From Diprion similis (Eukaryota > Arthropoda > Insecta > Hymenoptera > Diprionidae): a stretch of DNA of 64,000 bases. Shown here piece after piece: positions 9,340 to 34,359 of the stretch. The position numbers and the translations under genes are program-made. How positions within the stretch are numbered: position 1 is the first letter of the stretch; every line of letters begins with the position of its first letter. Location: assembly GCF_021155765.1 (NCBI RefSeq), contig NC_060110.1, positions 18,870,001-18,934,000 on the forward strand, given 5' to 3'. The notes under the pieces were generated by a model. It was given only the letters and a program-made list of their open reading frames with translations, had not been told where the DNA came from and searched no databases.

Positions 9340-12300
9340 ATGGACGACAAACTTCGGCAAATGGAAGATGAAATGAACAGGTAATTAACCCTTGGTCAAT
9401 TCGTGGTAAATATTTATCTTAACTTCTTCAGTTTTCCCCTAACCTCAGACGTCTCGATACGGTGTTCAATCAACCTCTTACTACATCACAATAATCATAC
9501 AAACAATTCAACTAAGTTACAATAATATCTACCCGTCTGAATTTCAAAAATGTTATTTACCTTTATCTACACATGAGCGAGCTGCGCCTCTTCTTGTGTA
9601 AGGATAGCCCCGCTTCTAACTTTGTTTACATAAAAATATGTTTCAATGTATAGGTTTGAGGCTGAAATTGGGGGGCAGCTTGTTACTCCTGTAGTCAGAC
9701 CTGTCATAGGAGTAAACACATACAGCCAAGTAGCTAGGCAACTTGAACAGCATGAAATACCAGCTCCAGTGGTTGCTGCAGCTGCGGCTTCGTTGGCATT
9801 CTCTCCCATGATTGGTTTTCCACCTCCACCACCACCACCACCGCCAATACTTATACCGCCACAAGTTGCCAGACAATGTAAGGAAATTAATACAAGAGGA
9901 ATAATTTGTTTTAATTTATCACATGATCCTGACAATTTGTTACCGAGTTTTCAAATTACTTGATTTCAGCAGCTATCTCAATGTCGACATATTCATCACC
10001 TGCTCAAATAAGCAACTCGTTTTTACCAAATACATCGGATAATACCTTGAGTGCTACACCAAAATCATATGAGCCAACATCAGCACCGATCATCCGTCAG
10101 GAAATTATAGAGCAAATAATTAATACTAAAATTCCTGAGGACGAGGGAAAAAAGAAAGTTAAAGCTAAAGGTGTCAGTACAGCAGCTGAGTTAGCAATCA
10201 GCCAAGGAAAAGCTAGCTCGATTATGGCTAATGCTAGTGCCGAGGAAACTCATCCAAAAGGCAAAGGAAAAAAGAACAAAAAAATCATACGAATGGCTGG
10301 TGGGCAAACTTGGGAAGACACGTCACTCTTGGAATGGGATGAAGGTAATTTTCGCTCTAAATTCAAAATCTTTGAGCACATCATATTAACTCCATTTAGT
10401 AAAGCTTATTTTTAAACTGCCTCAATATCTTGATGAGTTGTACTTTCATTAACTGAGATCATTACTTTGCCTTAGATGACTTTAGAATATTTTGCGGTGA
10501 TCTGGGAAATGATGTAACTGACGAAATGCTAGTCAGAGTCTTCAGCAAGTACCCAAGTTTCCAGAAGGCAAAAGTAGTGAGGGATAAAAGGACGAATAAA
10601 ACCAAAGGTTTTGGTTTTGTTTCATTCAAGGATCCACAAGACTTCATCAGGGCCATGAAAGAAATGAATGGTAAGTTTCTTTACTTATTAATTGTCAAAT
10701 GATGAATTGAATTCTTGCGTGTAATTTTTCTATGCCTACGATCTTAAATTTTTGGGCTCAGTTTTGAAGCCAAGCGATTCTGGGAATTTTTCGTAATATT
10801 TGGTATCGAAAATTCATACACCTATCAAATCATAAAAAAATATCTGGAAATTGAAATTGTACTATGCGTTCTTGTATGAATTTCATTTATTGTTTATGGT
10901 CAAGTTCATATTTCTTCGCTCATAGTCATCGATTTATTTTGCATTTGTAGAGACATCTTATTTCTTGACATACTTCAATAACACACTATGATAGCTTTAG
11001 CGGAAAAGGGGTAATCCTTGCAACATTAAAAACATATTCATTACCCTTTTCATACTTTGGTACTTGGAAACAGTTCATTTATTACCTTTAGATTTTCGTA
11101 AAACTGTGAACTGTAAAACATGTTCATCTAATAATTGCTCCAGCCTATACATCGAGTTCTTACACAGTTGTCGAGAATTAATCAAGCGGAAACAATAATT
11201 CGTAAAGATTCCTTAAGGCAATCTCATAATCGTTAAATATTCGTTGAAATAAAATCTATAAATAAATAATTACTTATTATGAATATTAGTAAATAAATAT
11301 CCGCAATAGTCTACATAAATGGCGAAAATTTCATTTCAAGTACATATCGTGCGCATAAACTTTTGAGATTGCATGTGATGAGACTTTGTGTTTGCAACCA
11401 AAATTATTAATTAACAGTTACCAGTAACAATGAAATTAGTTGTGGTAATCTTGATTATGAATTCTGCATAATATTGTAGTAATTTTTTACGCTGCCTATG
11501 ATACGATTATGTTGATAAAATTTAGGCATAATAAGTGATCGAGATTTTTGTAATATCCCAAAAATCATACATTTCACGAAGTGGCTGAATTGCTAAATTG
11601 AGTTGAAGTTCAATGGTTTTTTTTTTTTCAAGTTGCTGATAATATAGCATTATTTGATAATTGTTTTAACTCTGTCAAATATTGATGCGGTTATTAACGA
11701 AGAGTACTTTTCTTTGGCAAACTTTGTATTGTGAGATTACAGTAATTATTTCTCTAATCGCGCGGTCCCTTAGTCACATTCACGTTTAAATGTAAATAAC
11801 TATTTCCCAAGCGGTCCCCAACCGTAAGATACAAAGAGCTGAGGTATTATGGAGTACTGCCTTCTTCCAGAAGCTCCATTTCGTAAGGCTACGCGATTGG
11901 TCGAGTGTCTGGGTGGTGGTAGCAAAGCAGGGCTTTCCAACGGAAGTGCTCTCACCGGTTCAATCTCGTTAGCTACTGAACAAGAAAATTTAATATTTAA
12001 ACGTAATCGTGCATTGGGTCATTAAAAAAAATGTACAGAGATACAGATTGACTCTCTAGAAGAATCCATAATAATGTGAATCTTACCAAATCTTACCTGT
12101 GTTACTGTTAGACCGTGAACTGTGAGGATTCATGTATAATACAGAAAAGGGCATTCCGCCAGCTCCCCATCCACGAGAGGTGAATACACCTTTTTTAGCT
12201 ATTCTATTAATTGGCAGCAAAGTGTCTCGAGATGATTGCACAACGATTGAATTTTGATCACGTTGACTCTGAACTCTGAAAGTATAGAAATAAAATGTTT

Positions 12301-15300
12301 GGTTTGATTTTAGATTCATAAAAGAACAGTTTGCGTCTAAATCAACGAATTGGTAATCACGCTTCTAGTACCATGCAGATTTTTTTGTGCATTTGTCTAA
12401 ACGTTGATAACTTTTGAGCTATTAATATACACACAATCTATAAAATTGTATTCACAAATAACAAGTGAAGTGATAGTAGATGTTCATTACAAGTGTTGTT
12501 AATGCTGCATGAAAGATAATTAATTTCAATCGGCGAACTAAATTGACTGAACCAGTCAACGTTGCCTCCTCCCCCCTCTCTAACATAAATAATCAAAGCG
12601 TAATCCGTGTTTTTAAAATTCGCGTCCGTCTGGGATACACAAGTTGTGTAACGGATAGCTGCTTTTCAATTTCTCAACTTCTTATCAATATTATCGATGG
12701 CACTCGCGCGTGTTTGTCAAATCATTTAGCTTGATACATTCCCTCGTTTCTCCTGCTTATCGCCCATTAATTAATCTTTCAGAATGAATGGCACTTTGAT
12801 AGTTCAACTCTATTAGGTCAAAGAGACAGCTCATTTCTTCTGATATTTTCAATCTAAATATATGGGGCATTACAGCTAAATCCTGATGTTGAGATAACTT
12901 ACATTCTGTATTATTCATTCTGGTATTCAGTTAAGTTCAAAACATTTCTTGTGTAGAATATCGAAATTAGATTTTTGCTGTAAGAGCTCTCACACACACA
13001 AAACAAAAAAATTTTAACTGCCATTTAACGTCAAATATCAATCTGTAAAAATGTGGTGAAGTTAGATTAAATATGACTATTTCTGAATAATAGAAAAGAT
13101 TTAGCTAGTTTCAATTAATTCTGAACCAAGTCGAGGTCCACACTTCATTGGAAATTATGAAATAAATTGGATATATAAAATCATGGAAACTGGAAGATAT
13201 AAATTGCTAAAGTTTATCTTATAAAAATTAGTATTACATATTAGTGATGGATTCTTGTTTACCTCAGAGGATCATTGTAGTAATCTTGCTTAGCTGGTAG
13301 TTCCCGTCGCTGTAAATATTCCCAGCATCGTCCTCCCGGCGAACAATCCACCATATTTTCATCCCAGGAGCCATCGGTCGTATGGTGTAGAAAAGGGGCA
13401 CATTGAACCAGAAGTGTATTTAGGCTCAAGATTATAGTTACTTGATAAATAATTAACACTCTAGATTCCAACATTGGAAACATGTTGCTTTTTTTTTATT
13501 TATTCTCTTCTTATTCTTCTTCTCAGCAAGCTGATATACCTCGTCGAAGTGTATGTAGTACGCAGATTTATTTCTGTAACACAGAAAAATGTACGAATCA
13601 TGAAACCTGAATGTTCTTTAACTCTAGAAAGGGTCAATGAAGATCATACAAATATTAATTCTGAATAGGTTTATAAAACAAGCTTGCGTGATATTGCAAA
13701 GAAAAGACCAAAACAAAAAAAAAAGTTAAACCAGAAATGTACTTTTGATTGTTTACCAGACGTCTGGCAGCCGCTGAAGGTAACTTACTCACAATCAGTA
13801 GCCCTGTGTGTTTGCATCTCAAGACATTGATGGATGCAACCACTTTGCGTTACCGTATTAAATATCAATATTAGGAGGAACGTCTGTTCCTTTTATTTTC
13901 AGACACGTGCTTATACACGAGGGCAAAACTGTCTTTCCACGTGTGTCCTTCCTCCACGACTCTTTACTCTTGCTTAGTCGCGTCTGTTTTTATTAACTTT
14001 TTTTTTTTTCATCAATTAATTGCTTTCTAGATGCGTTAATTGAAACTCAGGATAGATCGAATTCGTTTAATCGAATATCTGTGGAACGTTCTCATGGAAT
14101 TGCATTAGACTGAAATATTCTAATATTTTGATAGCACGAAAATGTATCATAATTTTTTTTTCTTCTTGTTTGATGTTTCATTTTTTGCGAGATACGTGAG
14201 ATCAGAGATCAGAGTGTGAGACCTTTTAACAAGTCAATGCAATTTTTGAACCAGAGCGGGTTTCACCCACGGAGGGTTCAAGTGTAATAGCCCACCACTT
14301 ACTGAGTATAACTCAATACTTGCAGGGGTCTGACGATGTGCTTGCACGTGGCGTATGATGTGAACACGGAATTCTCTTTACTTGAGAATTATTTTTTCGC
14401 GATGTAGTAAGTTCACAGTGCGACTATTTTTAGAAGCAATCTCTTCCTCTCGGAACACAATTCTTCCAGAATTGTCGATCCTCAGTACGTTACCCGTATA
14501 ATTGCATTTTTTATCGATGCTCGCGTTCTAAAATTTGAATGGCATCATGAAGAATTATAAGAAACTTGCAGAAAACCGTGCGAAATATGAACTGGGTCGA
14601 TATCGTATAGAAATTTCGGTAAATACCCGGAATATTAAATCTTAACACAGACACCATGCATATTATACGTGTCTCGCGATTCTCAGATCATTTTTAATTT
14701 CAATGTATAACAAAGTCGTATCAGTTCAGAAGTTCAATTTTTGGTCCGGATTGTCTGGAAAAGTGAGATGGTTTCGAAAATGAAATTTTTCATTTACTCT
14801 TGATTTGGAAAAAAAAGAAAGAAAACAAACCGTCAAAAGGAAGGGAATTCTTTTTGACATATCGTCACGGTTGCCGGCTGATAGTGAGGCGCCATTGATA
14901 AGCTGACTATATTACGTTTGATCGGGGCCAAGCTGGTCACGTATATTTTAAATTAGAAAAAACAGGAAAAAGACTATCATCGTTCCATGTACAATTAGCA
15001 ATCTGTATACAGTATTTTACTCGCGAATCAAATGACGCTTATCATTCGATCACGCACTCATCTCACTGGCCGTTTGACCAGTTCAATTTAACATGTGCAT
15101 GTGTACAAGCACACGCGAATAGGAGATTAGAACAGAAAAAATTAAAGTATCATCAATTTTATTTCATTTTCTCAACGTAAATTTGATTTTTTCTCTTTGG
15201 AATCAAATTTATGTATACTCGATTTTATTATGACTGATGAAACGAGTGATTTAATCGATTTTTAATCAGAATTGTGTATTTTTTTTTTGAAAATTACGAA

Positions 15301-16578
15301 TGTAACGTAATATTTCGGTGAAATTGATAGTAACTGATACATAATCATTTTTCCGTCAATATTCAAGGGGTTAAAACGCAGGTGATTTAAAGCCTGTTCC
15401 ATTTGTAGCATTGTTATCACTAGACAATAATTACTCAAGGTTTGCTGTAATTAATTGAATTTCGTTTGGCTGATGGCATAATATTATACGCATAAGTGTT
15501 ATAAATATCTTTATATCCCGTAACGCAATTCTAGCGTTGTTCTGCGGTAAACAGTCTTTAATTGATTATTATTCACTGACTGTGCAGCCTTCATCTATTA
15601 AGAAAACATCAAGAAACTGTAAACAAGTTGTACCGAAATCCCGAACCGCAATTACGAAGCCGTATATTATACATCTATATACATATACATATAGGTATAA
15701 ATATAATATACTTGAAACTCTCCGCATCAGAATTTTAAATTACTTAAAAAAATTATCATTGAATTAATGATTCGTTATATCGTTATGTTATTTTTATATC
15801 CATAATCCACACCGAAAGACAATCTAATTTTACAGCAAAGCCTACAATTTCAATTTGATCTGCAGTTGCTTTAAATTTTTGAACAAACGTGGATTCAATT
15901 TTTTTATAATTGAGTTGTAACTCAATTGAATGCCGATGTTTCAAACGCAGAAGAATCAAAGATTATGCATTTCTTATAATAAATCATTTGCTTGAATCGG
16001 GAATCGTTGAAAAGTTTTTGATATTTCGATAGAACGACGTTTTGTTTCTGATGGTTTGATCTTTTTTGAATTTCATTTGAATTCTCGTTTAATAACCGAT
16101 TCCCTTTCACGTCTCTTTTTTTCAACGAGCGTAACGTTGCAACAGGGTTCGCTCGGTCAGTAAGCTGACTCTTTATTCCACCGTCTGGCCATTATAATAA
16201 AATTGGACTGTTTTTCGCTGTGTATTTTTTTTAATTTAATTCACGTTTTTTAAGGAATTAATATATCACTCTCGTTTTAATTCTTTAAACGGGAATTTCA
16301 AAGGGAACATCAGCAAAGAAACGCACAACAATTTTCTGCATTTAAATATATTTACACTCGGTAAACCCTTCATATTTTCATCAAATTAATTGAGCGTCAA
16401 TTAAATTTCGGTTAATAACGAATAACTTTCATCTTTATAGATTTAAAAGTCAAACACGATTTTACGTCTTTACACCCTATACTTCATCTGCAGTCATCAC
16501 CACGCGATTTATAGGACAGGTGTTCTTGAACTAGTTTTACATAATTTTATTTAACATTGCCAATCATAGAAAAAAATA

Positions 16579-16609
<31 letters not shown>

Positions 16610-19340
16610 ATAATACTTCATAAACCGAGTTGGCGAAAGCTCGACTCGCGTTCTAACATTGCAGATATTTTTGTGCATAGTCCCCCGGAAAATAATTGTC
16701 CTCGATGAATTTATTTGGGTTGGCTGATTAAGGATTCAGTTGTATGTATTCAGATTGTTAAACTCTAATGGATCACATTTATTTGGCTCGTAAAGCGTGA
16801 GGCAAGCACGACGATATGCTTGTGTGCGATGATTACGTTAAAGTCAAAGACAAGCAGTTTTGCGGGGGAATTATTGCAATGCGTGTATCTATTTCTGTGA
16901 CATTCCGTATTATTTTTAGTCCGACGTTATATTTATCATTGCGATTAAGTCCAGCGGCGGCGGAGGCGGGGTAGAAGAGTGAAATGGTGGCAATTTTACA
17001 ACTCGCAGACACCACGAGAACACTTGGTTTGCCAGTCACTTTACCCAGCTTGTAACCTTTGACGGTGATGGTTTTATATATGCCTGCTGCAGGAAAAGAA
17101 AGATGGAAGAGCATCAAAAACAACACGAAGCAAGCTTCGGATGACTTAGAGACTTTGCATATATTTCTTAATGCATAAACAAAAAGCACTGGACAATTGT
17201 TTTTTTTTCGTACGGTTTTCATTCACGTGTTTGTTTACTTTTCTTTTTCCCACTTGAGAAAACTCTCAAACTCTATCAGATAAAAACAAATTTCGATTTT
17301 CCAGTCACGTGAAATAAGTGCGATATTAAACTTCGTATTGATGAGGCATATTTTTAAGCTATCGTTGTATATATATATATATATACGTCAAAGGCTTTCG
17401 GTGACCCATTTCTGAAATTTCATTACGTCACCGATTTTGCCTATTATTTGTGCATCACTGGTAGGTACTGCATATTGGCAACAATTAGAAGAAGAAAGGA
17501 AAGGAAAAAGTATAGTGAAAAAGAAATTATCTATTACTTTCGAGATTTCTTTTTGATCTCTACAAGATCGATAGAACATAAGCGGAGAGATATTATCGAT
17601 GAAATTTTTTTTAGGAAAACGACAAAGGAAACGACACCGAAGCGTAACTATTTCAATGAAATCGAATAATTCGTTGTACATCAATTAATGTTGAGCAATA
17701 TTAAAGGCCAGATTCTATAACAAAGGCATATACAATGAAAAACGGGATACAATTTATTGAAGAATCGATAGTAATTTAAAGTCGTGAAACACTTTCCTTT
17801 GTCACAATTTCATTTCACACATCATGCGCACCTCTACGTGCTGCATAGCCTTGTCTATGGATATTCTAATTATAATCAAAGATTACGTCCTTTGTACATT
17901 CTATCTGAATTCTGAGATGTAATTATGTTATTGCATGACAATAACCTACGCAAATTACGTTACTAAGTTAGGTGAACTCGCGGTTTTGACGTTATAAACA
18001 GCCAATTTTACTCGAACTTACTTTGCAGTAATTAACGTGGTTATGTACGCTGTATAAATTTTAGAATTTCTAACCGTCAGTTGAATACCACGGCTTTCGA
18101 ATAATAAACTGGGGACGAATCCAGTCAACAAATATTTCTCTTCGTTATTTTCACCCTTTACGTAACTCGTCAGAAATAAACGCGGATTAGGACACAAAGA
18201 AATCTATTGGTATGACGGTCGAAGGAAAAAATAAAAACGAATAAATAAAACACGAATCAATTTTCTAACAAGGTGATAACGTATATATCATATCATAAAA
18301 GTTGAATTAACTTTGTTCATACGGTTCAGGATGTGTAATTTTCTTCTCATTTCGTTTTATTTCATTGCTAGTTCGAGAACGGAATTAAAAAATTGATTCC
18401 ATGATTTCCCTTGGCGAGTTTGTCTGTCCATAGACTTGAGTCGAAACATTCTAACTCGATTATATTAGAATTTCGATTCGTTTCAAACTTCTGTAAGGTT
18501 TCTGTGTACCTATAATTATCAAAAGTTCCCACCGCACCTTGAGTTAGTTTATTTTTTTGATCATATACCCCCCCCCCCCCCCCCCCCCCCCCCCGAGTTA
18601 TCCACACGAAGTTGTGATCGCGCACTGAAATTAATTACAAACTGTAGCAGCACGTCGTGTTACGCGAAGTCAGATGTGCAACCGCAGAATGATATAGGTC
18701 CATACACAGATCTGCACAAGTTCCGTTCAAATTAATCTTTAGTTTGAGGTGATCAACTCGAGCAAGCCATCTTTACGTAATATTGTAATGTACTTGCGGA
18801 GGTTTGATCCACGAGATCCTCGGTCAAGGATCCATCTCTACAAGGTGTATCTGCAGCCAATTAACCGAGTTCAGATATCAATTTGGTCGAGTATTGCAGA
18901 GGGAGGTTTCATCTGCATTTTTAATTTGCCCGAGTAGTCAAGGTTTAACGTGGTTAACGTTATTTTTGCACGAACACAATCCTGACGAATTATGAATGGA
19001 ATGCCAGCCCTGCGGAGTCACGTAACTTCGACTTCGAATTAGCGGAGAAATTAGTATTCATGAACTACGCGGTGACATGTATTTTGTTCGCGGTTAACAT
19101 TGATGAAACGATACCAGCTGTGTTTGTACCTGGACACGTTCAATGTACGTACACCTAATGAGGGAAATTTCGATGCGTTCATAATATGGTATCGATCAAA
19201 CGTCAATTTTCAACAATATTTTCTATTCCCGATAAAAGTTTAAAAAGTTTTTATTTCTGGGCTTAATGATGTTCCTTCTTCACGGATTATCTGATTACAC
19301 TTTATAATTATAGACATCCATCTTACGGATACCTATTGTA

Positions 19341-19383
<43 letters not shown>

Positions 19384-22147
19384 CTACCGATCAAAGTTTT
19401 ACTGAAATAAACGCGAATCCGTGCCGCAGAGGTGGTGTGATCGATTGTTATATTAGCGAAATTAACCCGACAAATATCGCACAGAGATTTGAAATGTATG
19501 TACAGTTGTATCAATAGTGGTAATGCATGCATAGGTATACATATTTGTTTGCATATTCGGGCTGAACAGGATCGAGAATGGAGTCGCTGATACGGGCATT
19601 AGGTATTTTTATTATCGCGATTAAATTGAAACCCGGAGAGTTATTAACATAATATAACACTAAAGTTTTCGTAAAAAACGTGTATCTACAAGTGATAATT
19701 TTTATTATTAACGAGATATTCACTTACGGAAACATATTATTTATCCAAGGATAAAAGAGAAAGAAAAAATTGTAAATGAGATATTTTTATAATCCCCGGA
19801 TTTTTCGAAATCTAACACCATTTTTTGTTACTTACAATGCCAAAAGAAAATTGAAAAAAAAAAAAAAAAAAAAATTATGAGCGCTTAGTCATGCAAAATT
19901 TTTTTTCCCGTGCTACAATGAAGATTATGGAATTTTGCTTTCGCGCATTATAGTTAGTTCTACAGAAACAAGTGAAAAGGTACAATAAGACTACAAATCT
20001 ACACCATTATTGCGGTAATATGTGCTGTACGAGTGTAGAATTGGAATACTTTGGATATTAGTTTGATCGAAACAGAAAAAGTGTTTTCAGAAAGATACAC
20101 AGAGAAAAATTTCTAGTTGTGATTACTGTACAGTCATTTATAACAATTTTTATTCTTTACGATAGTTAAAAAATATGCGTTCCAGGTACGAAATGGAAAT
20201 TTCATTTATAGCTGTAACCAGAAAATCTAGTATGTGTTAATATTTTTTTTTTATTGCAGCTACGCTTATCACATTTTTTTCTAACCCTTGCGATAATTCG
20301 ATAATAGTGCAATAAGAAATTCATATTGAGGCTTTATTTAATTTAACATTTATTTTAGTAAACTAAGCAAACAAATTTCATCCTGCAACAATCACAAAAT
20401 TTACCATCGGCAACTATAATCGTACTACATAGTTCCTCGTAACACGTATTATTTCTAATTCGAATATGTAATATTTAAATCGTTGTTTTAACGTTACACA
20501 TTTTATGAAAATTTCCAATAACAACAATAACAGATGTTACTTTTCTCAGTGTAAATGTAAGCATTTTTTAATTATTTTTATTATCTCTCATTTTTCTATT
20601 AACGATGCTTAAATTAGTTACGAGTAGGTTTTTTCGGAGAGACGTCAGAACAGTAAAAAAAGAAATAAAAATAAAAAAAAAAAAGGAAAGAAAAGAAAAA
20701 GAGTAAAACAAGAATGGAAAGAAGTACCAAATTCGAATACAGTGGGATAAAGAAAATTTGAAACAAAGACAAGTGATAAATTTTCATGAATACCCCGAAA
20801 GTTCGCCGGAAGTAGGAAAGAAAGTTTTATTTTATTTACCTGTCGCATTCGTTCGCAGTCGTTTTCCTTGGGTTCTTCTACCCCGTATCGTTCGTCTTGT
20901 TTTCCGCGTTGCCGCCTCTATAATTTATCTCAAAACTCTTCTATAACTCTTTTTGATTTACTTGATCCTATACGATATCACTCCTGTTTTATTCCTTTCT
21001 CTATCTCTCTCTCCCTCTCTCTTTCTCGCTCTCTGCAAACTACAGACCCTCAAAAATTAATTGCACGAATTATAGATGCTGCGCGTTATGTTATACAGGC
21101 TGCACTTTGATTTTCCTTTACTGCCAGGGTGACGGCGTCGGAGTGCGTCGCGACGAACGGCGTCTCGCTACTAATTCAACAACCCCTACCCGAACCGGAC
21201 CTCCCACCCTTATCAGACAGGCCAATAGGATTTTAGGATATATTATCAGCCAATCGTCGAAAAGTCTTTTTTCTTCCCCACCATTTCCATGCATAATTTA
21301 AAAAAAAAAAATTTATTATTACTATTTTTTATTTTTCCACATTTCAATATATACGTATACATACATGTGCTTTTATTTAAAATGCTATAACAGCGGAGAT
21401 GATTCAGATGCGTGATTGCATAAAAATCGGCGCGTATCAGGAGGCAAACGAAAAAATTGACGCATCTACATGCGCGTGTGCACGTGCATTTTTATGCTGC
21501 AAGTTGTACGTACAGGGAGAAGAAGAATTCCTGCAGATCGACGCTGCGTAACCCTGCAGTAATAATAAGACGATCTCATACACGCGATACGACGTGCGAA
21601 CGTGTGTGTGTGTGTGTATGTATATATATATATATATGTATACCACATACGTTGTTACATACATGACATACACAATACCGATAAGTCGCTGTGCTATCTC
21701 GCATCCAGCGTAGACGTATAATAATTGATCAACGTATATCAATCTTCCATTTACTGGCCATTGTTGCCATTGTTGCTATTTATATACCACCTATAAACCA
21801 ATTTAATAATCGTCTTGCATTGGCGAAGTGTATATAGTTATATAATCTATGTTACATGTACAATAATAATGGTATGACAGAGGAGGTGGGTTGATAAGGG
21901 ATAAAAGATTTTATTCACTCGGTAATACATCCTCGTAGAATTTTTATTAATTTTTTCTTTGCTGTTTGATCATTTATTTATTTATTTATTTATTTGTTTA
22001 TTAATCAATTAATTTTTGCGAAACATTTTTTGTCATGCCATTTGAGAGCTGTTCAATGATTTTTTGGGTCATGACTTCGAGATATACATTTATTCGATAA
22101 ATAATTATAAAAATCTCGCCATTACACAACATGTATTATACATATAT

Positions 22148-22212
<65 letters not shown>

Positions 22213-25200
22213 ATAGATGCGAAAAGAATTTTTACTCACAGAACAGAGAAATCGTATGGAATTCTAAATATGAATAACAGAAATAGAACGAATCCTCTAT
22301 TTTTAGTCACGGTTTTGTTGAATATTTAGAACTTGAATGAGGATGTAGGAAACAAAAATGTGCAACCGATAGAATGCACGCGTGTAGGTATAAAAGTATA
22401 TTTTTAGTTTTAACATGTGGGAATATTTTCCAACTCATCTCTGAAGGAATTTCAGATATATTTATTTATATATATATGTATATATTATGTGTTTATTACA
22501 CCTAAGCTATGCGCCCTTGTATATGCTAGGCATGTATATGTTTAATAATATATTACACGAGTAGGCGATTGATCGCGGGCTGTAGGTGTAACCTAATTGT
22601 AGGAACATGTGGTACACAAAAAAAAAAAGAAGAAAACGATCCTTATTCTTGGTGACAAATATAAAATTTATACTCAGTATTTCAAAATTCAGCTGCGGAT
22701 GAAGAGACACAGCTAAGAATTTCACGATTAACATTATATCTCTGGTTGTTATGATCGCGCAGTGATTGACGAATATTGTTATAACTATGATTACCTAATT
22801 TTCCTCGAGAAAAGTTTGGTACATTGATCGTCAATGTGAAAATAAAGGTAGAGAACAACGATATGTTATATCTTTCCTTCTTGTATTGGCATTATTAAAA
22901 TATCACACCGTCAAATTCATTGTAAAATTACAAATTAGTGATTTGTCGAATTTTTTCATCAATGTTTCGTTAGGTTAGTCTTGGCAACTTCAACCTCGTG
23001 TTTTTCAGTGATAAAAGCTTGAGTCACGCCGAAGCAACAAGTTGTTTCTATTCGCTGCGAGCCGGGAACCGAGTGCAATTATAATTGTGATTAAATCTCA
23101 AGTTTATGAATTAAGTTTGAGATTAAAAAAACGCTGTACCTTATTATTCGGTCCCCCTTTTTTTTCTTTTTTTTTTAACAGCATTACAACGCGTTATATT
23201 GAAATTTTATGAAAATCATTATATACCGGCCCGCTTCCCCTCGAAAGACGTTCATTCTTCTATTCGTGTTCACACGCTACAATGAATGAATAATTTATAC
23301 ACCTATATGAAAATTTAAACGAGCGTTTGATTCATACAGCATGTATAAGGTAACGCTTGTAGCTTATCGCGATATTTCATTATAATAGAGGTTGGTAAAA
23401 ACACGCTTTCCTGCAGTCATTGTGCCAACGACGGAGAAGCATTTGTCCTTTTTTTCAGCCCTGCATCAAGCTCTCGTTTATTGTTAGATTCAAGGCATTG
23501 ACTTTAACAAAAACGGAATCTGTCACGAGGATTAATAAGTTTAGCTTTTTTCATTTCTGAAGGTTTTTGTCAAATTTTACAACCGTTTTTAGATCGAAAT
23601 TCCCACACACCAATGACGGCAGGTGTTTTGTTACTCTAACAGCTTTCCTCGCGTACAAAGAATTTCAACGTTAGGTATAATCATTTCAATTATAATCACT
23701 CGATTTTGCTTTACAATCGAGTAATTTGGACGCGGAGATGATGACAAACTGAACGGATATCTAAACGGCGTTTGAGGTACCGGCGGAATATCCGGTGTAA
23801 CCTTGCGCTGTTCTGATTAAAATTACACTGCTGATCCGTGTACGAGTCCTTCGGTTTCGCAAAACGTTAAAAAAAAATCAAATTCAGTGATATTTTTTCT
23901 CCCTCTTTTTGCTGTCCTCTAATTCGCCAACTCTTATAAATATTAAAGGAGTGCAGGAAATTCGACGAACAAAGAAAAAAAAAAAAAAAAAGAAGGAACT
24001 TTCTCGCAATAAGAATCACATTTTATTATCTAACAATTACAGGTGTACAAATAATTTCATGAAACTTTTAACGATCCTTTCAACGATTTCGAGGTCAATG
24101 TTTTATCCTCGGAGTGAATAACAGGCCCAACTTCATATACAAGTGTGGTGTAGTTAAATATTCAAAGAAATATTATAACATAACGGGGTGTTTCTCATTG
24201 TGCAGAAATCTTAAGCGTGGGCGAGTAGAAAGGAGCCGGTGTCGTTGTACAGGTTATCCTGCGATTTGTCGCTTCCGAATCCCACGCCTAGGTGAATCCT
24301 TATCGTTAATAAGAGGTCCTAGACTTCTACAGTGTACCCACGTCATTGTATGACCTGTCCTGACCCGATACACCTCTGCTTTAACTTCGCATTGAAGACA
24401 GCCAATGACCGTGGTTGGGAAAACAGTCCCTTTCTTATCTTGATATTGCGTTGCTTATTTTTGTACTTTAGAAATCCGTGCTCCGGATGAAGATAGAATA
24501 GATAATTCCGTCAGAATTACCGACTCTGTTTGTACGGGATTGTAAGATATTATGAAGCATCAACTTGATCATTGATATACACTGAAAGAGTCGAGTTATT
24601 TATGTTATACAATTTTTTTATATTATATTCAACGCGGTGTATAAGACAGGTGGATCTTTGATGAATGGTGGCTTGATTAAAATCGTCAAGGTATTTCTTC
24701 AAGATTAACCTCGGCATCTAAGTTTTGTGGTATATAATATGGATAATTGCTTCTTATGGTAGGAGAAGGAAATTTTTCTCAACTGGTCTTCAGAATTCTT
24801 ATATTTTTATTGCCTTATCTCAGATTTTATCTTTGCCTTCGTCTCATTTCACGTGATTTCACTTAATTCACTCGGAGAACCTTTTTTAATCAATGTTTTC
24901 ACGACTTGTGTTACCATATTGTAACAATATAAATTGAATAATGCCTCGGCGACTTTTTTCTCTTATATATTATACCTTGGGGCTTAAATATTCCACCTGC
25001 ACACAATATATTGTCGGAGATATTATTATAGAACTGGAGAAGTTTCGCGCGGTAGAGCTATAATTGAATTTACAAAACAATTAAAAATTATATCTCTGAC
25101 GTCGATTGGTTCTTCAATTTTTTCAAGCCTGCAGCCACTCGATCTCCTTGAATATCAGGTATAGTCGTTATTCGATGAACAATTTTCACAGTCTGGCTAC

Positions 25201-27874
25201 CACCATGGCATCAGCTGTTCCATTAATTCTATTAATTAATTAGTTGCTTGGAATTTGATTCTTCGAATTCGATTATAAAATAATTGTTCATCAAATCTGT
25301 GGGGAAATTTCTTTCACATGCATTCGATAATCGGACAGTATGTGTAATGCGTTGCAAGAGAATCTCTGATGCATGAATTTAATATACACTGTACGTGTAA
25401 TATATTATTCATCGGATAGTGTTTAATTTAAAGATCTCCCTTAGGGCGAATCGATATTCCATGCAAATGTTGATTTTAAGCCGTTCTGACTGCCCTGATC
25501 GTGCTTAACGTAGTCCTCGGCAAACAGAACTCCACTTCAGTGCAATTCAGTGATTGATTTGCCAATTCAACTGACATAGTTTGTCAATGAATATATAAAG
25601 CAGCTTGTTTTCAAGAACGTTATATGCAGAGGAATAGCGATATATACGAGTTATTAATATTATACGCGATACAAGTTGTGGTAGTCAATCAAGGATAAAA
25701 ATTTCTTCCTAAGGCATTTCACGAATGCAATGCAGAGCAGCCGTTGCCAAATATTTCTTAAACGTTTTGTCCTCGCAATATTATTCATGGGGTGAGTATT
25801 TTCCACGAGTAAATAGAAAACGAGAAACGAATGCACGCGCCGGCCAAAAATATTCTCTCTATACCGTTTATATTTAACTTGATCATACATGTTTATCCTA
25901 TACAATATGCTAAAAATGAATAACAGAGACTCTTGCTTCTGCTGAAATGTCAATAATCCTTTACTGTTGTATTAATTGTAAGATTACCTATACTTTTCTC
26001 GCAAGAAAAGACGAACGATTTAACTTCTTTTTCATCCCGGTATTTCGAGGGGAAAAATTTAACCCCCAAAACATTTCTATACGCATATATGTCTTATCTG
26101 TGGGATACGAACAACGTGCGGTTAGCCCTAAGATCATTTTACCCATACCAGAGAGAATAAAAGAGCCTTGTATTTTCGATATTGGATGCCATCTATTCTG
26201 TGCGGTTCTTTTGTTCCTGGGTAAAAAAATTATTTTGCGTATACTTTGTCTGCATCGTCGGAGAATCCTTGAAGAAGGTGAGAAAGAAGGTATAAAGGTG
26301 ATATCAATCATTTGATCCTTATTCGACAGCAGACTTTTTTCACTTTATATTCTACTCTGCATTCCACGTGTATTTTGAACACGTACAAGGTGAGATACAT
26401 CTCTTATGCATTGTAATACGTGATGCATGCGTATAACAAAAAGAGCGAGGAAACGAATTGTTATTACTTTTAGAAACGACGTAATAGTCAGGCCATTCGG
26501 CGTAGAATAACGTATGTAGAGAATTTACGACAACTGTCCAGGGTTTCGAAGTAATTTAGTTTATTTTTCACCCTTTTAACTCCTTTCAGAGCTATGCGAT
26601 ATATACACGCAATTGTGTGTACGTACTTTTTATAACAACTTAATAACTCTGATCCTGCACGTGTACCGGAGTACTTTTTCATATTATTACAGTATAAGAC
26701 CAATTTTAATTTTCTTACCTTCAATATGTCTGATTGCTAATATTTATCCTTCACGTAATTTTACCGAAGATTGTTAAATAACTATTAGATTATAATACTT
26801 TTACTGAATATATACGAAAATCACATTTCAAGCGAGCACTCTGTTCATTCTTTCTTCTTCTTGATAACACAGGATACGTATCGTTCTTTTGTTGTCATCG
26901 GTAAAATATTGACGAACATCCATGTTCGCAGTTTGATAACATCGTTTCAAAATCGTGTCGTGGTTTTACCTGCGGTTTTATTTAAGTAGTAGCAATAAAA
27001 TATTTTCCGTCTCTACGTGCATCATGCAGACTTTTGTATGAGATTTCCCGAATACTTGTGATAAACGTGAAACCGCGTCCTGATCACGATTATCTGCAAA
27101 GCTGCGGTAAGCCGATTAAAACACACGGAATGAAATAATATCTGAAACTGCAGCCGCATCCTCCTCAAACTATAATAAGCATGCGATAAAACTTTTGTTT
27201 GTATATCGATAATCTTCAATTTTCGCAACCGTAACAAAGATTTTCTATTCGAGTAAATGACGAAGAATTTTTTTCCCCTTTATCCCAAACTGGAATTAAT
27301 TATAAGTTGAACGTGTGAAAATTATCATATGTCGCACTAGTTTGTATACGTATATAATATCGGTCGCGATATTATCCAGATTGCGTCACTTGAAAAACTC
27401 CGCAGGGTTGTTATACCCGATGAATAAAGTAGGGTTTTCGAGTCTTGTATCGTGAGAATGTGCCAGCAGGTTATAAGGCTTCGTTGTCACCGTATAAAAA
27501 CCAGTTGATGAGTTTATATGCGACGATAAAAGTGATCGTACCGAGTACGTGGGCGAAATATGTTTCGTTTTTCTCAATACATAAATTCCAAAGGGGGACT
27601 CAGTATAACGAACTTCAATTCGTGCCCTCAGTGTCGTCGGTGTATAATTATTAACGCTATTTTTATACGAGAATTTCTCACCTACTTATTTCTTCTTCTT
27701 ACTTGCCGTGGTAAATAATTATTTCCTTTTCTTTTTATCAATATTTCAGGAAGGTACGTCGGCTCGCGACCCATCAAGTTGCGGAAGAGCTCGTGGAAGC
27801 AAAGGAATTTGGACAGCGTTCGAAAGAAAGAAAAGGAAAAGCAGGCTCTGATCGGCTTACTCACCGGCAGGTGA
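9340..27874 (+). CDS. Rbm42: RNA-binding protein 42 homologue (single C-terminal RRM)
   Basis: Five exons (9340-9380, 9654-9877, 9970-10344, 10476-10670, 27750-27874) join in frame to 319 aa. The N-terminus (LRQMEDEMNRFEAEIGG) and VVRPVIGVNTYSQV match RBM42. A proline tract follows, with nine prolines around residue 75, then a low-complexity region. The signature AGGQTWEDTSLLEWDEDDF leads into an RRM with RNP2 IFCGDLG (218-224) and RNP1 KGFGFVSF (257-264). The last exon supplies RYVGSRPIKLRKSSW and a basic tail, as in other RBM42 proteins. The family binds mRNA and associates with hnRNP K and splicing/translation complexes. The last intron (10671-27749, 17,079 bp) is far larger than the others, interrupts the RRM, and contains an antisense gene. 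A possible poly(A) signal is at 28313-28318. Confidence 0.93.
10671..11799. other. Proximal part of the 17-kb Rbm42 intron
   Basis: AT-rich, with no coding signal on either strand. It ends where the antisense peptide-precursor gene terminates and would contain that gene's 3' untranslated region. Several TTTATT hexamers (minus-strand AATAAA) are present, for example within 11000-11300, but none can be assigned. Confidence 0.4.
11800..13483 (-). CDS. Candidate secreted neuropeptide/prohormone precursor, nested antisense in the Rbm42 intron
   Basis: Three exons (13263-13483, 12097-12275, 11800-11975) join in frame to 191 aa with good donors (GTAAAC, GTAAGA) and pyrimidine-rich acceptors. Residues 1-28 form a signal peptide ending LLVQC before APFLHH. 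The mature part has only two cysteines (C47 and C53, in DCSPGGRCW), enough for one small disulfide loop. Basic sites are RR (59-60), KK (101-102, before GVFTSRGWGAGGMPFS) and RR (171-172). The last segment, residues 173-191, starts with Gln and ends SYGWGPLGK-stop. Prohormone convertase and carboxypeptidase trimming would leave a C-terminal glycine for amidation, giving a ~17-residue peptide ending GWGPL-amide that could start with pyroglutamate. I cannot assign it to a named neuropeptide family; the architecture, not homology, supports the call. The other start choice is M4. Confidence 0.75.
13484..16584. other. Rbm42 intron, upstream of the nested antisense gene
   Basis: AT-rich with no recognisable gene. 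The first few hundred bases presumably hold the promoter or 5' untranslated exon of the nested minus-strand gene. Small open frames such as 13474-13668, 15537-15767 and 15922-16125 have no protein-like features. Confidence 0.4.
16585..16609. repeat. Poly(T) run of 25
   Basis: Uninterrupted T25 within the Rbm42 intron. It could be the poly(A) end of a minus-strand retro-insertion, but no element body or target-site duplication could be made out. Confidence 0.7.
16610..18567. other. Rbm42 intron segment with one exon-like minus-strand frame
   Basis: The minus-strand open frame at 16833-17222 (129 aa) contains a strong-looking 3' splice acceptor (pyrimidine run ending TTTTCCTGCAG, near 17095-17085) followed by a comparatively GC-rich frame. 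It could be an upstream exon of the nested minus-strand gene or a chance frame; no family was recognised. A short (TA)n lies near 17370-17386. Nothing else stands out. Confidence 0.3.
18568..18594. repeat. Homopolymeric C run of 27 (G27 on the minus strand)
   Basis: Uninterrupted C27 in AT-rich intronic DNA. The minus strand reads G27, a strong G-quadruplex candidate, and the plus strand an i-motif candidate. Length is probably polymorphic and prone to sequencing error. Confidence 0.85.
18595..21000. other. Rbm42 intron, AT-rich with microsatellites
   Basis: No coding signal. (TA)n lies at 19343-19379 and a poly(A) tract of about 20 near 19855-19874. Purine-rich A/G sequence lies near 20655-20715. 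A minus-strand open frame over the latter is only low-complexity Phe/Leu. Confidence 0.4.
21001..21300. promoter_or_regulatory. Compact GC/CpG-richer segment with CCAAT boxes inside the Rbm42 intron
   Basis: A CT-rich tract (21001-21036) is followed by CpG-rich sequence around 21125-21165, then two CCAAT-containing motifs, GGCCAATAGG near 21220 and CAGCCAATCG near 21249. This differs from the surrounding AT-rich intron and resembles a promoter or enhancer. No transcript could be attached to it. Confidence 0.3.
21301..27749. other. Distal part of the Rbm42 intron
   Basis: No gene recognised. (GT)n/(TA)n microsatellites lie at about 21601-21637 and a long (TA)n at about 22151-22207. The segment 24190-24430 is somewhat more GC-rich, without a supported reading frame. 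Around 25950-26315 both strands are open for more than 100 codons, but the translations show no family features. Confidence 0.4.
22151..22207. repeat. (TA)n dinucleotide microsatellite, about 57 bp
   Basis: Uninterrupted alternating T-A sequence in the Rbm42 intron, likely polymorphic and able to form cruciforms. Confidence 0.9.
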
Positions 27875-32461: not shown

Positions 32462-34359
32462 TTAGTCACGTACGCTGCAGAGCGGGCAGTACAGTGTACG
32501 ATGGTCTTCGCACAGAACCCGATTACAGTTTGCACAAACTGTCCGGGATTTTCGATCGTTAGATCTTGGGCAAAATGCACACCTTGCCCGCTTTCCAGGG
32601 GTACACTTTGCGCGGACCATAGGCTCTGCAATGTCCAAAATTTCTTCGATATACAATCGCAAGTTCCGACGTAGATTTACAATCTGTAGTCTCGCGCGAA
32701 GATGCGGCTCGATCAACGCTCTAACTAAAGTTTTCAAAAACTGTCTTCTAGCCAGTAACTGGTTGTTCCCATTAAAATTATAGAGCACCATTGCGTTGAT
32801 GCCTACTTGATCGAGCATGGCCATCCAAATTCTCATAGGCCATCGTAACGTTTTTCTCGCTGTGGTATACTCGTGGCACATTTGATTAAATGTATCTGTG
32901 CCACCTTTTGTTGAGTCGTAAAATTTGATAATTTCTGGTTTTTGTGACTTCTGATCGATTTCAGCAGTTTGATGGAAGGTTGAAAGTAAGAGAACAATTT
33001 TCTTCTTTTTTGGAGTGTAACAAACTAATGATTTGCTCTCATCGAATGCAAATCTTACGGATGAAACAGGCCCTGCTTTTCTAAAACTAGCAGGAATTTG
33101 TCTTCTATTTCTTTTGATTGTACCGACCATTGTTAGGGAATGATCTTGTAACATCTTGTCAAAGATCTCAATGGAAGAAAACCATTTATCACACGTCAGA
33201 TTTCTTGAGGTCCCATGAAGCGGCTCGGATAATTTTCGCAAGTAGTAAGATGGAACACTCTCGTCAGGCTCCGTCGTCACTTTCCCTACGTATGGCTCTG
33301 CGGTGTACATATAAAATGTCTGTGAATCATTCAACATGACAATTTTTATGCCGTATTTATCAGGCTTTAACCTGTTGTACACTTTAAATGGACAACGTCC
33401 CGGGAATGAAACCAATTGTTCATCAATTGTGCAATACGATGCTGGCGTGTAAAACTTCGTGCAGTTAGAGATAAAGGATTCCCACACTTCGCGTATTGGG
33501 GCAAATTTATCTATTTGTCTTCGCTGTGGTCTGGTATATTTATTGTCAAATCGTATCATCCTCGAGAGGAAGTTGTATCTGCGACTCGACATCGTTGCGC
33601 GATATATTACCGCACCATAATCAGCAGACCACAAGTCACCAACGTTTGTAGAAGATGTTTTCTGCAAGCCCGAGAAATAAAGTATTCCGATGAACGCTTT
33701 CAGTTCATCCAATCCCACGTTGCTGTACACATGATTTACATAATTTTCTGTTTCTACTGAATCTCGGTATCGTGTAATTTCTTCATTTGTATGAAGAACG
33801 ATTTTTTCCAGGATAGTGTTATTCAAGAGTAAACTCCATGCTTCGAGTGGAGTTCTAGCATTCCATGCTTCCCCAACTGGACCCGGTAAAAAACTCGAAA
33901 CATGATCTTGGTGATGTACTTTTTCTCGTGCCGCTGAGTACCACTGGTACCCGTCGTGTCCATGAATGACACTGGGTTTCCTAGGACGACAAGACGTTGC
34001 AGTGCCTCGAGTAGTTGGCCTTCCACGTTTCCTTCCAGTCGGGACCTTATGTTGTTGTTGACTTGCAGACTGTAAAAAATCAATTTTATACCATTACACT
34101 TCCATGGTCAGAAAAGAAAAAACACTAAATGGAAATATATTCGTGTAAAACGATGCAGTGTTCTTGTTCTTACCTCTGATTCACTTTCATCTGTGGTTTC
34201 CAAGTCAGATACAGTTTCTTCAGATTCGGAGTTTGTTACTTCTTCTATGTGATCGCTTTCGTCATCCGAAGACAGCCGGTCATTGCCTTGTTCTGTTTCT
34301 TCTTTCTCGCAGATTTTTTTGACTTCCTCAATACTTCGCAAATTATATCGGTGACTCAT
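32462..34359 (-). CDS. PiggyBac-family transposase, intact, two exons
   Basis: Exons 34174-34359 and 32462-34069 join in phase 0 to 597 aa, close to the 594 aa of the original piggyBac transposase. An acidic Ser/Glu/Asp-rich N-terminus is followed by a basic stretch (RKRGRP), then the DDE_Tnp_1_7-type core: TIDEQLV (D278), TCDKWFSS (D356) and FYDSTKGGTD (D447, D454). The 78-residue spacing between the first two acidic residues equals that of piggyBac. The C-terminus (about residues 550-593) is a Cys/His-rich zinc-binding domain with CAFCP, CANCNRVLCEDH and CPLC, used to bind transposon ends. No stop or frameshift interrupts it. I found no terminal inverted repeats or TTAA duplications, so it may be a recent element with ends I missed, or a host-retained transposase gene. 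Confidence 0.92.

Follow-up and report, generated by a model that had tools for sequence, protein, structure and literature searches.

The 64,000-nucleotide window analysed here, from the sawfly Diprion similis (contig NC_060110.1, positions 18,870,001 to 18,934,000 of the forward strand), contains a 191-codon open frame on its minus strand that probably represents a real neuropeptide (prohormone) gene outside all of the named families tested here. The frame is divided among three exons, extends from an ATG at window position 13483 to GGG-AAA-TAG at 11800 and sits antisense within the last intron of a gene that we take to be Rbm42. Its signal peptide, which was identified by hydropathy, its convertase sites and its amidation signal share one reading frame, one of the general criteria by which insect neuropeptide precursors are recognized. 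Also in favour of a neuropeptide gene, no Pfam or PDB match suggested a protein of another kind.

A sequence-only reading of the window had proposed the three-exon model, and the phases, GT/AG junctions and open frame on which that model depends were all found in the sequence. Codon phases agree across exons of 221, 179 and 176 bases, and both introns are of the GT...AG type, with donors GAG/GTAAAC after 13263 and CAG/GTAAGA after 12097 and acceptors TTTCAG/ before 12275 and TTCAG/ before 11975. Six GT/AG combinations are available within about 15 bases of the four sites. Four of the six terminate early; those that remain open are the model described here and a variant that loses one valine by using an acceptor 3 bases downstream. 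The RNA fold of intron 2 was unremarkable (z -0.19). Ahead of the start codon, at window positions 13573 and 13623 on the minus strand, are two sites that resemble acceptors and are compatible with a non-coding 5′ exon. The features of the gene and of the predicted precursor are as follows, in window coordinates.

10691..27752, plus strand: last Rbm42 intron, about 17 kb, in which the gene is nested; ends placed by eye and approximate
13263..13483, minus strand: coding exon 1 with start codon, signal-like segment, two-cysteine segment and RR, from translation
12276..13262, minus strand: intron 1, 987 bases, GT...AG, 32 % G+C, from the splice model and composition
12097..12275, minus strand: coding exon 2, from the splice model
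11976..12096, minus strand: intron 2, 121 bases, GT...AG, 29 % G+C, from the splice model and composition
11800..11975, minus strand: coding exon 3 including the stop codon, from the splice model
13400..13483, minus strand: signal peptide, residues 1-28 (MFPMLESRVLIIYQVTIILSLNTLLVQC), from a hydropathy filter; cleavage predicted after C28 or A29
13310..13399, minus strand: possible 30-residue N-terminal peptide APFLHHTTDGSWDENMVDCSPGGRCWEYLQ, from translation; processing putative
13304-13309, minus strand: RR after the N-terminal peptide
12191-12196, minus strand: KK before the first core
12155..12190, minus strand: first core GVFTSRGWGAGG, directly after KK, lacking an amidation signal
11860-11865, minus strand: RR before the terminal peptide
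11809..11859, minus strand: predicted mature peptide QYSIIPQLFVSYGWGPL-amide, 17 residues, residues 173-189 of 191; processing putative
11800..11808, minus strand: amidation signal Gly-Lys-stop

The 191-residue precursor consists, in order, of a hydrophobic start, a two-cysteine segment, RR, a spacer, KK-GVFTSRGWGAGG, another spacer and RR-QYSIIPQLFVSYGWGPL-GK-stop, and the KK and RR convertase sites and terminal amidation signal that had been proposed earlier are present in the translation. The signal peptide call was made from hydropathy. We propose that the precursor would enter the regulated secretory pathway in neuronal or endocrine cells, that prohormone convertases would cleave at KK and RR, and that a carboxypeptidase would then trim the last Lys while PHM/PAL would convert Gly to the amide. 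The main hormone would be (p)QYSIIPQLFVSYGWGPL-amide, for which the calculated [M+H]+ is 1950.016 in the pyroglutamate form and 1967.04 with Gln retained. The N-terminal 30-residue peptide, APFLHHTTDGSWDENMVDCSPGGRCWEYLQ, may form a small disulphide ring in which C47 and C53 could close around five residues; its calculated [M+H]+ in the disulphide form is 3449.44. Nearly all such amidated peptides signal via class A G protein-coupled receptors, and the amidated peptide is predicted to act on a receptor of this class.

Within the N-terminal peptide (13310-13399, minus strand), CSPGGRCWE resembles CNGGRCSE of a Fopius trypto-pyrokinin extension (PMC5831470 Table 1); the resemblance is weak, as 38 of 400 shuffles equalled it.

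A second feature of the precursor is an internal repeat. Neuropeptide genes typically hold related copies bounded by convertase sites, and this precursor contains two related cores, FTSRGWGAGG and FVSYGWGPLG, that have F-x-S-x-G-W-G in common. When the precursor is aligned with itself, the best off-diagonal match pairs them (VFTSRGWGAGG with LFVSYGWGPLG), and 83 of 2000 shuffles were equally good. Dibasic sites are found upstream of both cores: KK precedes the first with Gly-Val between, and RR is located nine residues before the second. GWG occurs three times in the six frames of the window, twice in this gene. The sequence-only reading overlooked the F-x-S-x-G-W-G repeat and the likeness to ACP, AKH, corazonin and GnRH peptides that is described below, whereas its gene model, nesting, processing sites and lack of a family match held up.

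Searches with the 191-residue precursor returned nothing that would place it in a named family, as had been the case when it was read from sequence. The joined precursor had no match at an E-value of 10 in either Pfam or PDB, and the terminal peptide with added basic letters retrieved from PDB only a chain named 'Transmembrane beta-barrels' (E 0.21). A paralogue search of the D. similis genome (269 Mb, 60 contigs) at an E-value of 10 gave three matches, all of them the gene's own exons. Among 5.39 million open papers, a collection that excludes supplementary files and most subscription papers, we found no neuropeptide literature containing the core strings of the precursor; the string GWGPL occurred in three papers on hepatitis C virus and in one unrelated protocol, and in no neuropeptide. 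If the gene is real and conserved, it would extend the list of insect hormones by an orphan, together with a concrete predicted peptide and a shortlist of receptors.

One alternative is that the terminal peptide is a GnRH/AKH-type ligand whose S-Y-G-W-G-P core is recognized by a member of the GnRH/AKH/corazonin/ACP receptor group, the peptide being either a displaced and lengthened ACP/AKH relative or a product of convergence. We regard this as unlikely and retain it as a lead. The peptide end resembles those of hormones that, in other animals, govern energy use and reproduction. The precursor was compared with a panel of 117 mature hymenopteran peptides from 34 families, taken from PMC5831470 Table 1 with about 23 TK, RYa, NPLP1 and OK-A entries omitted. 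The five best matches were Nasonia ACP (pQVTFSKGWGPa), two AKHs and two corazonins, and a third corazonin ranked 11th. Nasonia ACP aligned with QLFVSYGWGP without gaps at six of ten identical positions, a score equalled by 2 of 2000 shuffles. When the whole panel was corrected for, the observed maximum was reached by 26 of 400 shuffles; thus, taken by itself, the likeness to ACP, AKH and corazonin is suggestive but short of significance. In a previous panel of 49 peptides, AKH, ACP, corazonin and GnRH peptides held eight of the nine top places, and the other 4 of the 12 such peptides came further down. With 3000 shuffles each, the number that did as well was 8 for an AKH query that carried one more Gly than the species' own AKH, 8 for salmon GnRH, 24 for RPCH, 42 for corazonin and 49 for octopus GnRH.

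Nasonia vitripennis ACP (PMC5831470 Table 1) shares with the terminal peptide an S-x-G-W-G-P core in register and an amidated end; the D. similis peptide differs in being a 17-residue C-terminal peptide with an extra Leu and with V in place of F before S. The AKH of the same genome shares Q-L-x-x-S-x-G-W-G (6 of 9 identical), whereas the precursor studied here has a non-aromatic position 4, a WGPL-amide end, two cores and a peptide that does not follow the signal peptide. AKH is listed as pQLNFSTGWa for both Nasonia and Argochrysis (PMC5831470 Table 1). Trout GnRH3, which ends SYGWLPG-amide, and starfish GnRH, which ends PGWGPG-amide, share SYGW-x-P or GWGP before the amide and an N-terminal Gln that is likely to be pyroglutamate (PMC5592718 Table 1). 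The peptide differs from the GnRHs of other phyla in its length, its position in the precursor and its terminal Leu. No insect GnRH is known to us to end in Pro-Gly-amide.

Short consensus motifs are insufficient to settle descent in the GnRH/AKH superfamily (PMC5592718). The AKH hallmarks given in the same paper are a length of 8-10 residues, pGlu at position 1, an aliphatic or aromatic residue at position 2, FS, FT or YS at positions 4-5, W at position 8 and a W-, WG- or WGX-amide end. When the terminal peptide is set in register, Q1, L2, S5 and W8 agree with these hallmarks, position 4 has V where F or Y would stand, the end is WGPL-amide, the predicted length is 17 residues and no convertase site directly precedes the in-register Q. 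Peptides of more than 10 residues that have only two to four hallmarks have been termed 'proto-AKHs' (PMC5592718); the terminal peptide could be said to fit this description, which we do not use as membership. The layout of AKH, ACP and corazonin precursors, with the peptide right after the signal followed by GKR, is likewise absent. In the D. similis genome the AKH (QLNFSTGWGKR) and corazonin (ending TNGKR) directly follow a signal-like stretch, whereas our terminal peptide occupies residues 173-189 of 191. Canonical AKH, corazonin and ACP are all found elsewhere in this genome, the last, QVTFSRDWNPGKR, at C12:9612695 with its signal exon outside the stretch that was read. With the canonical genes elsewhere and the layout different, we rejected the possibility that the gene is an orthologue of AKH, corazonin or ACP. 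The peptide may work like a member of the GnRH superfamily without being one.

Candidate receptors of GnRH/AKH type were sought in the genome with a stretch of AKH receptor covering transmembrane segments 6 and 7 (TM6-7) at an E-value of 1. This query gave 32 genome matches, including loci on contigs C2 (C2:20256413) and C4 (C4:8597532/8647606) and in a cluster on C8, and the loci were read over TM6-7 only. When the joined TM6-7 pieces were compared with PDB, GnRH receptor was the best match at four loci, on C2 (E 1.5e-19), on C4 (4.8e-10) and on C8 at 4.083 Mb (1.5e-16) and 4.037 Mb (4.1e-10). A fifth locus, on C8 at 4.054 Mb, has a TM6-like and a TM7-like piece. Three GnRH-receptor-like loci lie inside 47 kb on one strand (C8:4037167-4083687). 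The second C8 copy is identical to the first at 39 of 79 positions, and the first is identical to the C2 locus at 39 of 73; two C8 loci differ from the first beyond what would be expected of recent copies. Because the second copy has NPMIC where the first has NPLVY, in addition to this divergence, it may have changed in function or be decaying, and the possible decay of one of the four loci counts against a GnRH/AKH-type ligand. Assignment of C4 as the AKH receptor, C2 as the ACP receptor and C8 as the corazonin receptor would be tentative. As three canonical ligands face four or five loci of this receptor type, one or two loci would be without an assigned ligand. These loci are candidate receptors for the peptide under the GnRH/AKH-like reading. 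It is rather improbable that the peptide is an undescribed extra insect S-x-G-W-G-P-amide hormone, lengthened and located at the C-terminal end of its precursor, that exists alongside canonical AKH, ACP and corazonin and acts through a diverged GnRH-receptor-type gene of the C8 tandem cluster. Were the GnRH/AKH-like reading true, the peptide would be a fourth insect ligand in a superfamily usually given three in arthropods (AKH, ACP and corazonin), and would bear on the origin of ligand-receptor pairs in an ancient system.

It is also unlikely, and about as doubtful as a GnRH/AKH-type ligand, that the gene encodes some other secreted peptide whose amidation-like end arose by chance. Such a product could be an antimicrobial peptide, a peptide of a gland or of the cuticle, or an extracellular ligand that works through its cysteine ring. 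G[KR]-stop occurs 40 times in the six frames of the window, and the Rbm42 protein itself terminates LLTGR-stop, that is, Gly-Arg-stop; thus a Gly, a basic residue and a stop carry little meaning by themselves. Antimicrobial peptides can have Gly/Trp-rich cores as well. Against this explanation are the dibasic sites before both cores, the classical RR-Q...G-K-stop arrangement of the terminal segment and the absence of a Pfam match. The PDF of the same genome, at C4:21680668, reads NSELINSLLGLPKNINNI-GK-stop and thus shows this kind of ending on an established amidated peptide; in PMC5831470 Table 1, PDF is given for two wasps, both with an NMNNA-amide end.

A further alternative is that there is no gene, and that open frames and splice-like sites have come together by chance in a long intron. 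An anatomy filter was constructed that required a signal-like first exon with a donor, an optional middle exon, a pyrimidine-rich acceptor in the last exon, a span of less than 3 kb and a dibasic site 6-30 residues before a terminal G[KR]-stop. Applied to the window, the filter returned one end, that of this gene, and it gave no model in 20 real stretches of 10 kb (200 kb) from the same contig. In order-3 Markov copies of the window, at least one model was obtained in 6 of 255, which is consistent with a chance origin; the filter ignores the repeated GWG core, the step in G+C content where exons meet introns and how strong the splice sites are, and all three argue against chance. The exons have 42, 42 and 51 % G+C compared with 32 and 29 % in the introns. 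Among same-length steps through the rest of the host intron, 108 of 1288, 117 of 1293 and 3 of 1293 matched exons 1, 2 and 3, respectively, such that exon 3 alone stands out in G+C within the host intron. Codon log-odds were trained on 927 codons from exons of the window that were taken as conserved. Of 54 open stretches in the remainder of the host intron, 2, 2 and 0 did as well as exons 1, 2 and 3, respectively, and of 1290 open stretches in the 200 kb background, 329, 222 and 13 did. The coding evidence is moderate, and the case for the gene leans mainly on its anatomy.

Several observations weigh against a neuropeptide gene. The anatomy filter was designed after the gene had been seen, and its counts therefore favour the gene. 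About one-tenth of same-length stretches of the host intron equal exons 1 and 2 in G+C content, and the codon usage of these two exons is ordinary against the 200 kb background, where that of exon 3 is high. The true frame scores highest of the six only in exon 2, another frame being slightly higher for exons 1 and 3. The internal repeat exceeds shuffled sequences only modestly, and the amidation signal is present on the second core and absent from the first. Pattern searches of the prokaryotic and viral collections GTDB and IMG/VR gave 18 and 24 matches, none of which was confirmed. With these points taken into account, we consider the absence of a gene improbable, and a neuropeptide gene outside the named families continues to be the probable explanation.

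It is very improbable that the gene is a divergent member of the HanSolin, fliktin, kinin or allatotropin families. HanSolin likewise has an amidated peptide at the C-terminal position of its precursor with G-x-PL-like letters near the end; however, it ends GQPLRW-amide in most Polyneoptera and has a precursor of 88-139 residues (PMC7179676), and the candidate was rejected as the precursor studied here ends GWGPL-amide and has no G-x-PLR(W/F)-amide or other RW/RF-amide end. A HanSolin pattern, which missed the Phe codon TTT, gave 5 matches in the D. similis genome versus 12 in a reversed control, none of them an in-frame HanSolin. Fliktin/Pea-NPLP is similar in being a recently described insect precursor of unknown function, and was rejected by length only: its long multi-peptide precursors have 691 and 679 residues in two tenebrionid beetles (PMC9552230), compared with 191 here. 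Insect kinins have an F-x-x-WG-amide end, exemplified by PFNSWGa (PMC5831470 Table 1), and were rejected because our precursor reads FVSYGWGPL-amide. TSRGWG resembles TARGFG of Manduca allatotropin, which ranked 6th in the panel of 49 peptides, but allatotropin was rejected since its end is not present on direct reading.

The host gene was placed from two plus-strand exons. An RRM exon lies at 10457-10702 (RRM_1, E 5.3e-20), and near 27753 comes the start of the last coding exon, YVGSRPIKLRKS..., which reads YVGSRPIKLRKSSWKQRNLDSVRKKEKEKQALIGLLTGR-stop. We assume the name Rbm42 from the C-terminal letters together with the RRM. These two exons flank the precursor gene, in agreement with the antisense nesting that had been described for it. 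Elsewhere in the window, an open transposase frame of 543 residues is found at 32465-34093 on the minus strand (DDE_Tnp_1_7, E 1.3e-69), a domain typical of piggyBac elements.

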